From Burkholderiales bacterium 8X (GTDB lineage Bacteria > Pseudomonadota > Gammaproteobacteria > Burkholderiales > Burkholderiaceae_C): 64,000 nt of DNA. Below are positions 3,869 to 12,788 of the stretch, one piece after another. The notes under the pieces were generated by a model. That model searched no databases, was not told the DNA's origin, and saw only the letters and a list, made by a program, of their open reading frames with translations. The stretch's first letter is position 1. Each line of letters opens with the position of its first letter. Location of the stretch: positions 689-64,688 of the forward strand of contig LR732703.1 in assembly GCA_902506565.1 (NCBI GenBank). Reading direction: 5' to 3'. A program made the position numbers and the translations under genes.

Positions 3869-3978
3869 ACGGGGTCGCCATGCGGGACAACCGAGATTGC
3901 CGAGATTGCCGAGAGCTCCAAGAGCTCCAAGAGCTCCAAGCGCCACGAGATCCCTTCAACGAAAGGGTCGCCCGGTGA
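3865..3978 (+). CDS. 37-codon ORF bridging otnK and otnC
   Basis: Short hypothetical ORF whose ATG overlaps the otnK stop (ATGA) and whose TGA overlaps the GTG start of otnC (GTGA). It is rich in charged residues and contains a repeated RDC and LQE pattern caused by 9-bp tandem repeats in the DNA. I know no family for it. It could be a leader that passes ribosomes from otnK to otnC, or simply a chance ORF in a spacer. Confidence 0.3.
   Translation: MNGVAMRDNRDCRDCRELQELQELQAPRDPFNERVAR
3891..3940 (+). repeat. 9-bp tandem repeats between otnK and otnC
   Basis: Two copies of CCGAGATTG (3891-3908) followed by CCGAG and three perfect copies of AGCTCCAAG (3914-3940). The unit length keeps every frame intact. 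The tract sits inside the 107-bp otnK-otnC spacer. Confidence 0.9.
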
Positions 3979-6148: not shown

Positions 6149-6180
6149 AAAAAAAAGCGGAACCCGGCCTGGGTTCCGCT
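6149..6180 (-). terminator. Rho-independent terminator of the IscR-like gene
   Basis: Perfect 10-bp inverted repeat AGCGGAACCC/GGGTTCCGCT with a 5-base loop at 6156-6180. Eight A residues lie next to it at 6149-6156, so on the minus strand the stem is followed by a U tract. It ends the minus-strand unit just after the 6199 stop and lies tail to tail with the tetronate operon. Confidence 0.85.
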
Positions 6181-6198
6181 CGATGCGAGTCGGTGGGC

Positions 6199-6735
6199 TC
6201 AGCGCTTGGCGAGCATCCGGCCGAGCGCGAAAACCGAGTTCGGTGCATTGACGCGCGGCGGCTTGACCCGGGCCGGGCGAATGCCGGTGCGCTTCTCGAC
6301 CGGCGCCGTCTCGATGCGCACGCCGCGGGCGATCTGCTCGTCGACCAGGCTCTGCAGGCTGACCGAATCCAGGAACTCGACCGTCCGGCGATTGACCGAG
6401 GCCCAGAGGTCGTCGGTGCTGCAGCGGCCTTCGGCCAGGCCGTCCGAGTTGGCTTCGGCGGCACGCTTGTCGTCGGCGTCGTCCTCGATCGCGAAGATGA
6501 TGTCCGCGACGGTGATGAGGTTGGCCTTGCGGCCGAGCGAATAGCCGCCGCCGGGGCCGCGGGTCGATTCGACCAGCTTGTGCCGACGCAGCTTGCCGAA
6601 CAGCTGCTCGAGGTACGACAGGGAAATCCGTTGGCGCTGGCTGACGCCGGCGAGTGTGACGGGACCGGCACGGCTTCGCAGGGCGAGGTCGATCATGGCG
6701 GTGACGGCAAAGCGGCCTTTGGTGGTGAGTCTCAT
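6199..6735 (-). CDS. Rrf2-family (IscR-like) regulator with cluster cysteines missing
   Basis: 178-residue winged-helix regulator. The N terminus MRLTTKGRFAVTAMIDLAL and the recognition-helix region ISLSYLEQLFGKLRR, then STRGPGGGYSLGR, are strongly IscR-like. IscR binds a [2Fe-2S] cluster through three cysteines and a histidine in residues about 92-107. Here that stretch (residues 88-110) holds a single cysteine (C105), the first two cysteine positions are not Cys and the histidine position is Asp. It is not next to isc genes; it lies after an MFS exporter. A cluster-free, constitutive or differently sensing Rrf2 paralogue is likely. Confidence 0.85.
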   Translation of the reverse strand: MRLTTKGRFAVTAMIDLALRSRAGPVTLAGVSQRQRISLSYLEQLFGKLRRHKLVESTRGPGGGYSLGRKANLITVADIIFAIEDDADDKRAAEANSDGLAEGRCSTDDLWASVNRRTVEFLDSVSLQSLVDEQIARGVRIETAPVEKRTGIRPARVKPPRVNAPNSVFALGRMLAKR

Positions 6736-6855
6736 GGTTGTCCTCTCGGTCGGGGGGCAATGTGGGCTGCATCAGCTGCAGCCCGGGCTCGGCGGGCGGC
6801 CGCGTTCATGTCAATCGGAGTGTAGGGATGCGAAGAGGTTCCCAAAAAAAATCGT

Positions 6856-8520: not shown

Positions 8521-9021
8521 TCAGCGCAGAACCTTGTCCGGCGCCTGTTTCAGGTGGCCGAGCGGCAGCGCATGGCTCGCCTTGACCTCGCCGAGCGAGA
8601 AGCTGGTGTGCAGGTCCTTGACGTTCGGCAGGTTGAGCAGGTGCTGCAGCGCGAAGCGCGAGAACGCATCCAGGTCCTGCGAAACCACCTGCAGCTCGAA
8701 GGTGCCGGTGCCGCTGATGTAGTGGCAGGCGATCACCTCGGGCAGCTGGCGGATCGCGTCTTCGAGCTTGCGGGTGCTTTCGCCGGTGACCCGCTCGGTG
8801 TCGACCCGCACGAACGCCAGGACGCCGAGGCCGATCTTCTTGCGATCGATCTCGGCCCGGTAACCCTTGATGAAGCCGGCCTCCTCGAGGGCACGAACCC
8901 GCCGCCAGCAGGGCGCCGCGGACAGGCCGACGCGCTGCGCGAGCTCGGCGTTGGTGAGCCGGCCGTCGCTTTGCAGTTCTTGCAGGATCGCGAGGTCGAA
9001 CTTGTCGATTCTTTCTTGCAT
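8521..9021 (-). CDS. Lrp/AsnC-family transcriptional regulator
   Basis: 166 residues: an N-terminal helix-turn-helix (FDLAILQELQSDGRLTNAEL, with PCWRRVRALEE as recognition region) and a C-terminal RAM ligand-binding domain from about residue 65. Such regulators normally respond to amino acids. It is divergent from the indolepyruvate ferredoxin oxidoreductase gene, with a shared 161-bp upstream region, so it probably controls that gene in response to aromatic amino acids (inference). The ATG lies only 5 bases from a TAGAAT element and has no Shine-Dalgarno. Confidence 0.9.
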   Translation of the reverse strand: MQERIDKFDLAILQELQSDGRLTNAELAQRVGLSAAPCWRRVRALEEAGFIKGYRAEIDRKKIGLGVLAFVRVDTERVTGESTRKLEDAIRQLPEVIACHYISGTGTFELQVVSQDLDAFSRFALQHLLNLPNVKDLHTSFSLGEVKASHALPLGHLKQAPDKVLR

Positions 9022-9032: not shown

Positions 9033-9182
9033 GGAAAGAAGCTTCCAGATTGCGGCGCTTTCAGGGCATAGAACGCAAACACCTGTCGCATGGCCGGGCA
9101 TACACTTTGCGTCAATATGGCTCGGGCATCGCTCGAAAGCCACCCACCGCTACGCCCGACCGGCCAGCCACAGGAGACACCC

Positions 9183-12100
9183 ATGAATGCACCGTTGCCC
9201 GAGCACATCCGCAAGGCCCTCGAGACCGTCACGCTGGACGACAAGTATTCGCTGGACTACGGGCGTGCCTTCATGAGCGGTGTCCAGGCGCTGGTCAAGC
9301 TGCCGATGCTGCAGCGGCTTCGGGACCAGCAGCAGGGCAAGAACACGGCGGGCTTCATCAGCGGCTACCGCGGTTCCCCGCTCGGCGGCTACGACCAGGC
9401 GCTGTGGAAGGCCAGCAAGTTCCTGAAGGAACAGAACATCGTGTTCCAGCCGGGCGTCAACGAGGAGTTGGCCGCCACCGCGCTATGGGGTACGCAGCAG
9501 CTCGGCTTCTCGCCGCCGGGCACCAATCGCTTCGACGGCGTCTTCGGCATCTGGTACGGCAAGGGCCCGGGCGTCGACCGCTGCTCGGACGTCTTCAAGC
9601 ATGCCAACATGGCCGGCACCACGCCCTGGGGCGGGGTGATCGCGGTGGCCGGCGACGACCACATCTCGAAAAGCTCGACCGCGGCCCACCAGAGCGATCA
9701 CATCTTCAAGGCCTGCGGCACGCCGGTCTTCTTCCCGACCAACGTCCAGGAAATCCTCGATCTGGGCATCCATGCCTTCGCGCTGAGCCGCTTCTCCGGC
9801 CTCTGGTCGGGTTTGAAGACGATCCAGGAGATCGTCGAGTCGAGCGCCACCGCGATGATCGATCCGGAGCGGGTCGACATCGTCATTCCGTCCGACTTCC
9901 AGATGCCGCCCGGCGGGCTGCACATCCGCTGGCCCGACCATGCGCTGGAGCAGGAGGCCCGCCTCATGCACTACAAGTGGTACGCCGCGCTCGCCTACAT
10001 CCGCGCCAACCGTCTCAACCACAACGTGATCGAAGGCCCGAACGACCGCTTCGGCATCATGGCGAGCGGCAAGGCCTTCAACGACACCCGCCAGGCGCTG
10101 ATCGACCTCGGCCTCGACGACGCGGCCTGCCGGCAACTCGGCATTCGGCTGCACAAGGTGGCCGTGGTCTGGCCGCTCGAGGCACAGCTGACCCGCGCCT
10201 TCGCGGCCGGGCTGCAAGAAATCCTGGTGGTCGAGGAAAAGCGCCAGGTCATCGAATACCAGCTGAAGGAAGAGCTCTACAACTGGCGCCCGGACGTCCG
10301 CCCGAACGTGGTCGGCAAGTTCGACGAAGGCGAGGTACACCAGGCCGAAGGCTATTCGGGCGGCGAATGGTCGATGCCGAACCCGACCTCGCACACCTTG
10401 CTGCGGGCCAATGCCGACCTCAACCCCGCGATGATCGCCAAGGCGATCGCGCAGCGCCTCAAGAAGACCGGCCTGCTCGCAGCCGCCGGCGCCGACATGA
10501 TGGCTCGGGTCGAGTCCCAGCTCGCCATCCTCGAGGCCAAGGAGCGCTCGATGGCCGCGCCGCCGGTGATCGGCGTCGCGAACGCCACCCGCCAGCCGTG
10601 GTTCTGCTCCGGCTGCCCGCACAACACCAGCACGGTCGTGCCCGAGGGCTCGCGCGCCCTCGGCGGCATCGGCTGCCACTTCATGGCGACCTGGATGGAC
10701 CGCTCCACCATCGGCTTCACGCAGATGGGCGGCGAAGGCGTGCCGTGGGTCGGCCAGCAGCCCTTCACCACCGACCAGCACATCTTCGCCAACCTCGGCG
10801 ACGGCACCTACTTCCACAGCGGCCTGCTCGCGATCCGCCAAAGCATCGCGGCCGGCGTCAACATCACCTACAAGATCCTCTACAACGACGCGGTCGCCAT
10901 GACCGGCGGCCAGCAGCTCGGCGAGCGGCCCGAGGGCCATTCGGTGCTGCAGATCGCCGAAAGCCTGCATGCCGAAGGCGCCGTCAAGGTGGTCGTGGTG
11001 ACCGACGAGCCCGAGAAATACGACGGCGTCAACGTGCCCGGGCAGGACGTCAAGGTGCGCCACCGCGACGACCTGGACGAGATCCAGCGCGAATTCCGCC
11101 TGATCAAGGGCACCACGGCCATCATCTACGACCAGACCTGCGCCACCGAGAAGCGGCGCCGCCGCAAGCGGGGCACGGCGGTCGATCCGGCCAAGCGCGT
11201 GGTCATCAACGACCTGGTCTGCGAAGGCTGCGGCGATTGCAGCGTCAAGAGCAACTGCCTGTCGGTCGAGCCGCTCGAGACCGAATTCGGCCGCAAGCGC
11301 ACCATCAACCAGAGCACCTGCAACAAGGACATGAGCTGCTTGAAGGGCTTCTGCCCGAGCTTCGTCTCGGTCGAGGGTGGCCAGCTCAAGAAGAAGGCCA
11401 AGAGCAAGGCCGCGACGCCGGCGGAGCTGGGCGCACTGCCCGAGCCGGCGCTGCCTTCGCTGGCCGGCGGCGGCGTCTGGGGGATCGTGGTCGCCGGCGT
11501 CGGCGGTACCGGCGTGATCACCATCGGCCAGCTGCTCGGCATGGCGGCGCACATCGAAGGCAAGGGCATCGTCACGCAGGATGCCGCGGGCCTTGCGCAG
11601 AAGGGCGGCGCCACCTGGAGCCACGTGCTGATCGGCGACACCCAGAACGACATCCGCACCACCCGCGTCGGCACCGCCGCGGCCGACCTGATCCTGGCCT
11701 GCGATCCGCTGGTGAGCGTCAACGCCGAGACCACGGCTCGCATGCGCGAAGGCCGCACCCACGTGGCCCTCAACAGCCACAGCACGCCCACGGCCGCGTT
11801 CGTTCGCAATGCCAACTGGCAGAACCCCGAGGAGGCCTGCGCCGCCGAGATCGCGCGCGTGGTCGGTGCCGATGGCATCGGAGCCTTCGATGCGGACGCA
11901 GCCGCCACCTCGCTGATGGGCGACACCATCTACGTCAACCCGATGATCCTCGGCTTCGCCTGGCAGAAAGGCTGGATTCCGCTGGAACACGCGTCCCTGA
12001 TGCGCGCCATCGAGCTGAACGCGGTGGCGGTCGAGAACAACAAGGCGGCCTTCGAATGGGGCCGCCAGGCTGCCGAGCGGCCGGCCGAACTCCAGAAGCG

Positions 12101-12788
12101 GGTGCAGCCCGGCCACGTCATCGAGTTCAAGAAGCGCGAGACGGTGGAGAGCCTGGTCGCCCGCCGGGTCGAGTTCCTGACCGGCTACCAGAACCAGCGC
12201 TATGCGGCGGCCTACCAATCCTTCGTCGCCAAGGTGCAGCAGGCCGAAGCGCCCCTGGGCAAGAGCAGCCTCACCGAAGCGGTGGCGCGCGCTCTCTTCA
12301 AGCTGATGGCCTACAAGGACGAATACGAGGTCGCCCGGCTGCACACCGATCGCGCCTTCCTCGCACGGATCGAAGGCATGTTCGAAGGCGACTACAAGCT
12401 CAACTACCACCTGGCGCCGCCGATCATCGCCAAGAAGAACGCCAAGGGCGAGCTGCAGAAGCAGAAGTTCGGTCCTTCGATGCTGACCGGATTCCGGGTG
12501 CTGGCCAAGCTCAAGGGCTTGCGCGGAACCGCGCTCGACGTCTTCGGCCGCACCGAGGAGCGCAAGACCGAACGCGCGCTCATCGGCGAGTACCGCGCGA
12601 GCATCGAGGAGGTGCTGCGCGGGCTCGATGCCGGCAACCATGCGGTGGCGCTGGAGATCGCCAACCTGCCGGACCAGATCCGCGGCTACGGCCACGTCAA
12701 GGAGCGCAACCTGGTCGCGGCCCGCAAGCGCTGGGACGAACTCATGGGCCAGTGGCGCAGCCCCGCCGCCGTTCGCGACGCGGCTTGA
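9183..12788 (+). CDS. Indolepyruvate ferredoxin oxidoreductase, fused alpha/beta subunits
   Basis: Oxidatively decarboxylates aryl-pyruvates from aromatic amino acid transamination to aryl-acetyl-CoA, passing electrons to ferredoxin. 1201 residues fusing the IorA- and IorB-like parts. N-terminal PFOR-type domain (residues 1-400), ThDP domain with NLGDGTYFHSG near 540, a cysteine-rich Fe-S segment at 680-735 (CEGCGDC, then CNKDMSCLKGFCP), and the gamma-type domain with AGVGGTGVITIGQ near 772. I chose the ATG at 9183, preceded by CAGGAGACACCC; the frame opens earlier at 9090 but without family similarity. The Lrp gene is divergent. Confidence 0.92.
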   Translation: MNAPLPEHIRKALETVTLDDKYSLDYGRAFMSGVQALVKLPMLQRLRDQQQGKNTAGFISGYRGSPLGGYDQALWKASKFLKEQNIVFQPGVNEELAATALWGTQQLGFSPPGTNRFDGVFGIWYGKGPGVDRCSDVFKHANMAGTTPWGGVIAVAGDDHISKSSTAAHQSDHIFKACGTPVFFPTNVQEILDLGIHAFALSRFSGLWSGLKTIQEIVESSATAMIDPERVDIVIPSDFQMPPGGLHIRWPDHALEQEARLMHYKWYAALAYIRANRLNHNVIEGPNDRFGIMASGKAFNDTRQALIDLGLDDAACRQLGIRLHKVAVVWPLEAQLTRAFAAGLQEILVVEEKRQVIEYQLKEELYNWRPDVRPNVVGKFDEGEVHQAEGYSGGEWSMPNPTSHTLLRANADLNPAMIAKAIAQRLKKTGLLAAAGADMMARVESQLAILEAKERSMAAPPVIGVANATRQPWFCSGCPHNTSTVVPEGSRALGGIGCHFMATWMDRSTIGFTQMGGEGVPWVGQQPFTTDQHIFANLGDGTYFHSGLLAIRQSIAAGVNITYKILYNDAVAMTGGQQLGERPEGHSVLQIAESLHAEGAVKVVVVTDEPEKYDGVNVPGQDVKVRHRDDLDEIQREFRLIKGTTAIIYDQTCATEKRRRRKRGTAVDPAKRVVINDLVCEGCGDCSVKSNCLSVEPLETEFGRKRTINQSTCNKDMSCLKGFCPSFVSVEGGQLKKKAKSKAATPAELGALPEPALPSLAGGGVWGIVVAGVGGTGVITIGQLLGMAAHIEGKGIVTQDAAGLAQKGGATWSHVLIGDTQNDIRTTRVGTAAADLILACDPLVSVNAETTARMREGRTHVALNSHSTPTAAFVRNANWQNPEEACAAEIARVVGADGIGAFDADAAATSLMGDTIYVNPMILGFAWQKGWIPLEHASLMRAIELNAVAVENNKAAFEWGRQAAERPAELQKRVQPGHVIEFKKRETVESLVARRVEFLTGYQNQRYAAAYQSFVAKVQQAEAPLGKSSLTEAVARALFKLMAYKDEYEVARLHTDRAFLARIEGMFEGDYKLNYHLAPPIIAKKNAKGELQKQKFGPSMLTGFRVLAKLKGLRGTALDVFGRTEERKTERALIGEYRASIEEVLRGLDAGNHAVALEIANLPDQIRGYGHVKERNLVAARKRWDELMGQWRSPAAVRDAA

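Follow-up and report, generated by a model that had tools for sequence, protein, structure and literature searches.

A second IscR without cluster ligands in Burkholderiales bacterium 8X and its relatives

The iscR2 locus and its neighborhood

Positions 6199 to 6735 of the minus strand of the window (the whole 64-kb stretch of DNA analyzed here) hold an IscR-type gene of the Rrf2 family, a duplicate of IscR from which the cluster ligands are missing and which we refer to as iscR2. This ligand-less paralog was recognized from its open reading frame, its profile matches, and its alignment. The frame starts with ATG and runs uninterrupted for 178 amino acids (aa), which rules out a broken or partial gene. 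The product scores 112.9 bits against the Rrf2 profile PF02082, above the gathering cut-off of 30, and this score, together with the region-wise constraint on iscR2, also rules out a chance open reading frame. Orthologs with 75% to 76% identity and the same neighbors in three genomes of the same genus (L114 to L116) likewise argue against chance. Against the IscR equivalog TIGR02010, the window copy reaches 170.3 bits, under the curated cut-off of 207.55, and the closest relatives of the protein among solved structures are IscR. The insertion element ISCR2 in the literature is an unrelated namesake.

The initial annotation had placed the gene away from isc genes and behind an MFS exporter, and the locus agrees with this description. 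An MFS_3 exporter gene (PF05977; 6856 to 8484, minus strand) lies directly upstream, with 120 bp between its end and the start of iscR2, and is itself preceded by a gene for an Lrp/AsnC-type regulator (8521 to 9021, minus strand); the iscS-like gene is found at the other iscR copy of the genome. The window locus and the three orthologous loci, hereafter clade A, have in common a large oxidoreductase, which we take to be an indolepyruvate ferredoxin oxidoreductase, followed by the Lrp-type regulator, the exporter, and iscR2, with the regulator and the exporter kept in all four loci.

About 110 bp upstream of iscR2, a promoter-like block, GGGAACCT-N14-ACTCC (6817 to 6843, minus strand), is present in all four clade-A genomes. 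It resembles what we take to be the ECF-type promoter consensus and may act as a promoter. The shortened pattern GGAACCT-N13..15-ACTC has a single match in the window's own genome, at iscR2, and five in the three relatives, three of them at the iscR2 orthologs. The reversed pattern matched three times in the own genome and four, five, and six times in the others, so that no regulon could be drawn for the block. The search for Sigma-70 promoters between 6100 and 9200 found none. Behind iscR2 lies a terminator-like hairpin of 11 pairs with a T tail (6155 to 6181, minus strand); the terminator scan gave this one match against a mean of 1.5 in shuffled sequences, and by count the hairpin is thus not above chance. 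Elsewhere in the window, at 3891 to 3940, two perfect 9-bp tandem repeats adjoin each other, CCGAGATTG in 2.7 copies and AGAGCTCCA in 3.2 copies.

Ligand loss, distribution, and origin

Alignment with the canonical IscR of the same genome sets A92, D98, C105, and D108 of the window copy against the ligands C92, C98, C106, and H109, for which the E. coli equivalents are C92, C98, C104, and H107. The numbering used here is also matched by the IscR of Comamonas testosteroni (178 aa; C92, C98, C105, H108), whose disruption is reported to lower metal(loid) resistance (PMC4236595). The ligand set of three cysteines and one histidine is therefore absent from the window protein; C105, encoded at 6421 to 6423 (minus strand) and aligned with the third-ligand place, is its sole cysteine, as had been read from the sequence at the outset along with the replacement of the other two cysteines and the histidine. 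These positions belong to the former cluster loop (aa 83 to 109; 6409 to 6489, minus strand), which has lost its ligands, is partly of low confidence in the AlphaFold2 (AF2) model, and evolves nearly neutrally.

The initial annotation had also raised the question of a second, canonical iscR elsewhere in the genome, and one is present. The genome (G000; 4.79 Mb, 99.99% complete) holds two strong IscR-like genes, the window copy and a canonical iscR at G000:C1:2570422-2570955, which has CGGKENCMGSEAGRCMTH, exceeds the TIGR02010 cut-off of 207.55 with 212.4 bits, and adjoins an iscS-like gene (read by eye). A third Rrf2 match is weak, at 22.9 bits, below the Pfam cut-off.

Ligand-less copies were then compared as a set of 95 from the genus and the family, 36 of lineage V, which includes the window gene, and 59 of lineage W. 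The C-C-C-H set occurs in none of them, versus 12 of 12 canonical controls, and 46 have no cysteine anywhere (5 in lineage V and 41 in lineage W). A cysteine close to the third-ligand place, 3 to 5 residues ahead of the LW pair, is found in 29 lineage-V copies and 3 lineage-W copies, leaving 7 and 56, respectively, without it; all four clade-A copies and L117 have kept it. Neither C105 nor D98 is conserved across the lineage of the window gene. Histidine stands at the fourth-ligand place in three copies (L134, L145, and L176). Two of these, L134 and L145, retain this histidine and the cysteine near the third-ligand place and have lost the first two cysteines, and they are possible intermediates.

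The threshold used makes the genome counts of such copies lower bounds. At least 26 of 37 genomes of the same genus have one or more ligand-less copies, as read from the fetched loci, and in G022 (88% complete, 8% contaminated) such a copy is the sole match. The family search covered 299 genomes, 4 within the genus and 295 outside it. Of the latter, 60 gave at least two matches at E ≤ 1e-30, and the extra copy is ligand-less in 59 of these, both copies being canonical in the remaining one (G127). In the better-scoring copy, the ligands were read for part of the genomes, namely the 12 canonical controls and the loci of named relatives; among the best 80 named relatives, the loop is ligand-less in two, both Variovorax (L034 and L105), and canonical in the other 78. 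Outside the family, 24 genomes from the same order gave no second match better than E 1e-8. A survey of 641 Rrf2 proteins is described as finding the three cysteines in the majority (PMC9973013), and within the accessible text of openly licensed papers we found no earlier description of IscR paralogs in this family that have lost the ligands. Judged by these sequences, iscR2 appears to be a natural, recurrent, apo-like IscR.

In a tree of all 116 distinct rows, lineage V is the neighbor of canonical Variovorax IscR and lineage W stands apart; the starred branches of this tree force two ligand-loss changes, with a warning of long branches. The loop-free tree kept 81 of the 116 rows, the 35 dropped being near-copies and long branches (e.g., L219, L145, L200, L201, and L217). 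In this tree one origin of the ligand-less copies is not rejected (p-AU 0.777; 63 ligand-less rows versus 18), nor is it with L134 and L138 left free (p-AU 0.806), and the tree that holds the ligand-less rows together is the better one. The ligand-less copies may thus go back to one loss or to two. Gene position also favors a common origin, because an nhaR-like neighbor occurs in both lineages: it lies divergently beside iscR2 in 38 of 59 lineage-W loci and, with a BI-1 gene in between, in four lineage-V loci (L135, L136, L167, and L170). In total, 13 lineage-V loci have a BI-1 gene ahead of iscR2. A relative of the window oxidoreductase (9090 to 12788) is also found close to iscR2 at one lineage-W locus (L197), and a 220-aa match to it at one further lineage-V locus (L135), which may indicate that the window gene occupies an old iscR2 site.

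One of the nhaR-like neighbor proteins passes NF008284 (258.9 bits; cut-off, 219), and no protein of the window's own genome does so, the best reaching 50.8 of the 219 bits. A TTCG-N6-CGAA block noticed by eye in the lineage-W intergenic regions resembles the published NhaR consensus TCgaAAAAatCtA (PMC6307784), and the lineage-W copies may consequently be under NhaR control. Furthermore, many iscR2 copies adjoin genes for exported-looking proteins of about 111 to 142 aa with an M.RW start and a PPR-type end. For 16 lineage-V copies (nine with BI-1 in between) and 12 lineage-W copies (L118 to L124, L126 to L133, L158, L206 to L216, and L218), such a gene is found upstream at a distance of no more than 1 kb; for three further lineage-V copies (L141 to L143), it is found just downstream. 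The 12 canonical iscR loci had no such gene in the 3 kb scanned around them with the profile. Across 61 genomes the profile gave 26 matches at E ≤ 0.01. By their coordinates, all 15 strong matches (E < 1e-20) and three of the weak matches lie beside an iscR2, and the other eight, with E from 1.8e-5 to 0.01, lie elsewhere. The two members tested matched no Pfam or NCBIfam family. In the window genome, the exported protein was found neither with a one-member query (E ≤ 1) nor with the profile (E ≤ 0.01).

DNA-binding domain, constraint, and predicted structure

The winged-helix (wHTH) domain (aa 1 to 82; 6490 to 6735, minus strand) has the recognition helix ISLSYLEQ and the wing RGPGGGY of canonical IscR. 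The DNA-binding segments had been called IscR-like from the start, and both SLSYLEQ at 38 to 44 and the wing do match the canonical protein. In E. coli, S40, E43, and Q44 are described as touching the DNA major groove and E43 as barring apo-IscR from type 1 sites, which are bound by holo-IscR only, while type 2 sites are bound by both forms (PMC5411485); a role of R59 in DNA contact is also reported (PMC9973013). All four residues are present in the window copy. S40, E43, and R59 occur in 95 of 95 ligand-less copies and Q44 in 67 (20 of 36 in lineage V and 47 of 59 in lineage W); the other 28 have L, D, A, or P in its place, so that one common operator is not shared by the family. Five ligand-less copies read ARSSLEL or ARSSLEA at 38 to 44. 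This rebuilt helix marks the L139 to L143 subclade, which also has an upstream block, GGAAACTTTT...CACACCTA. Since S40, E43, and Q44 are all kept in the window protein, it would be an apo-like reader of type-2-like sites, blind to Fe-S status. A point against this reading is that the pattern CCNYA-N7-TRNGG, which we take as the type-2-like IscR core, has no match in the 64-kb window, versus 2.26 expected by chance.

The regions of the gene differ strongly in their constraint, as estimated by the Nei-Gojobori method, with values that are rough given the short regions. Between the window gene and its three orthologs, the wHTH domain has a dN of 0.06 at a dS of 0.71 to 1.16 (dN/dS of about 0.05 to 0.09), the loop a dN of 0.32 to 0.37 at a dS of 0.48 to 0.56, and the linker before the tail a dN of about 0.68 at a dS of 0.65 to 1.53. 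In a canonical pair (L147 and L151), loop dN is 0.02 at a dS of 0.62. The loop exceeds the wHTH domain in dN in 16 of 16 ligand-less pairs computed. Following the linker, the C-terminal motif PNSVFALG (aa 165 to 172; 6220 to 6243, minus strand) is again constrained, with a dN of 0 at a dS of 0.66 to 1.14 between the window gene and the orthologs; across the 16 pairs its dN is 0 in 13 and 0.06 in 3. This selection pattern reads as that of a working DNA-binding protein that would have given up its cluster.

The tail motif is shared with canonical IscR. In the form [PA]N[SW][VI]F, it is found in 94 of 95 ligand-less copies, L219 being the exception; among the 12 canonical controls it occurs in 10, and the remaining two are from other families. 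A search of 10 genomes at the DNA level returned 19 matches to PNSVFALG, which by their coordinates all fall where an iscR or a ligand-less copy ends, and none to a control pattern; in G100, one ligand-less copy has a variant tail that escapes this pattern. To our knowledge, the E. coli IscR does not have the motif.

The AF2 model, built from 69 (62 ligand-less and 7 canonical) of 107 collected sequences, has a mean pLDDT of 81.6, with 86 to 96 across the first eight ten-residue blocks and values below 50 at 96 to 103 and 145 to 154. A C-terminal helix at 168 to 177, which overlaps the tail motif, is of moderate confidence. Helices 107 to 124 and 127 to 137 (6325 to 6417, minus strand) are the putative dimerization part, by analogy with the account of IscR in PMC4236595. 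The best Foldseek match is IscR on its promoter (4hf1_B; E 3.0e-12; TM score of 0.88 by target length and 0.65 by query length), followed by apo-IscR (4hf0), and compared with 4hf1_B the model has the winged-helix fold of the Rrf2 superfamily. In the PDB sequences of both matches, the cluster cysteines read as alanine.

Possible roles of IscR2

That the gene codes for a cluster-independent regulator was proposed in the initial annotation, and ligand loss, a nearly unconstrained loop, a constrained wHTH domain, and cysteine-free relatives all point the same way. At the level of the family, cluster independence is strongly supported, given that none of the 95 copies has the ligand set, that 46 have no cysteine at all, and that the loop is almost free to change next to a constrained wHTH domain. 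For the window member itself, cluster independence is likely; because the cysteine near the C105 place is kept throughout clade A and in 29 of 36 lineage-V copies, it may serve there as a thiol or help to hold an unusual cluster.

IscR is the textbook Fe-S sensor, and its apo form acts on DNA by itself. The reading that we consider probable is that IscR2 is a duplicated IscR turned cluster-free regulator, acting like a permanently apo-IscR. The copy coexists with a canonical IscR, has lost its ligands, and combines a constrained DNA-binding part and tail with a loosened loop. As a winged-helix dimer, it would bind operators of the type-2-like rather than the type-1 kind, independently of cellular Fe-S status, and the canonical IscR of the genome would keep the Fe-S sensing job. 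The dimer is presumed, and the apo-like binding mode is suggested by the identical contact residues and by E43 in every ligand-less copy. IscR2 might regulate its own or neighboring genes and could receive its signal through its expression level, the conserved PNSVFALG tail, or C105. The closest parallel is the apo-locked E. coli IscR (Cys to Ala; 4hf0 and 4hf1), which has the same fold and DNA-contact residues and no ligand set; however, that protein is a laboratory mutant, whereas iscR2 is a natural second copy with other neighbors.

A different use of C105, which we regard as unlikely, is a monothiol switch that senses quinones or electrophiles, like C102 of SifR, and controls export through the adjacent MFS gene. 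SifR and YwnA are Rrf2 proteins without a cluster and with one cysteine in the connector region, as the window protein would be, and the single cysteine of SifR is described as a quinone sensor (PMC9218516). C105 is the sole cysteine of the window protein, a cysteine near its place is shared with the three orthologs, L117, and most of lineage V, and the exporter adjoins iscR2 in all four clade-A genomes. Nevertheless, the SifR/YwnA cysteine is reported as conserved in its own group (PMC9218516), whereas that of IscR2 is missing from most of the family, including 7 of 36 lineage-V copies and all but 3 of 59 in lineage W, and the loop around C105 is nearly unconstrained.

It is improbable that IscR2, rather than controlling a regulon of its own, tunes the Fe-S regulon by forming pairs with canonical IscR or by competing with it for binding sites. 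In clade A, the recognition helix does not differ from the canonical one and the helix behind the loop is similar to its canonical counterpart, and the two proteins have the private C-terminal motif in common; on the other hand, 28 of 95 copies have replaced Q44 in the recognition helix, and the recognized neighbors are nhaR, BI-1, or exporter genes rather than isc genes. More doubtful still is an Fe-S cluster held by C105 with acidic or external ligands. The IscR of Rhodobacter sphaeroides, of the same family and with one cysteine like iscR2, is reported to bind a cluster (PMC4618611), and the acidic D98 and D108 occupy ligand places in the window copy. However, the Rhodobacter protein is encoded by the first gene of an isc-suf operon, and its cysteine, C142, does not match the IscR ligand positions (PMC4618611), whereas that of IscR2 stands at the third-ligand place; C105 and D98 are not kept across the lineage, 46 of 95 relatives are cysteine-free, and a canonical IscR exists in the same genome. 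Least credible is a former iscR decaying toward loss, since the fast change of the loop and linker and the patchy occurrence (26 of 37 genomes of the genus and 59 of 295 others of the family, at the thresholds used) are outweighed by the low dN/dS of the wHTH domain, the tail motif unchanged between orthologs at a dS of 0.66 to 1.14, the stop-free frame, and the kept neighbors and upstream block.

Under the favored reading of a cluster-free, apo-like regulator, the wide maintenance of a ligand-less copy beside an intact IscR suggests that apo activity is selectable on its own. The dozens of natural "cluster mutants," with the recognition helix unchanged or altered, offer a test of the role of the cluster in DNA specificity. 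They also call for caution in annotation, as these copies resemble iscR and yet very likely lack Fe-S sensing. More tentatively, an old duplicate of the Fe-S sensor may have given rise, perhaps more than once, to a cluster-free IscR2 family wired to envelope and ion stress. In this speculative scenario, a new regulatory module would consist of IscR2 with PNSVFALG as a docking helix and the exported protein (M.RW...PPR), sometimes joined by NhaR and BI-1, and the recognition helix would have been re-aimed in several subclades at targets of their own.

Among other Rrf2 proteins, CymR is a regulator not known to hold a cluster and has a fold similar to that of the window protein, but the window copy scores only 86.8 bits against the CymR equivalog (NF047409; cut-off, 195). 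A cysteine-synthase-like gene, identified by eye, lies downstream of iscR2 in several lineage-W loci (L161, L165, L166, L168, L169, L179, L186, L188 to L190, L194, and L196), an arrangement that recalls the pairing of CymR with CysK in Firmicutes.
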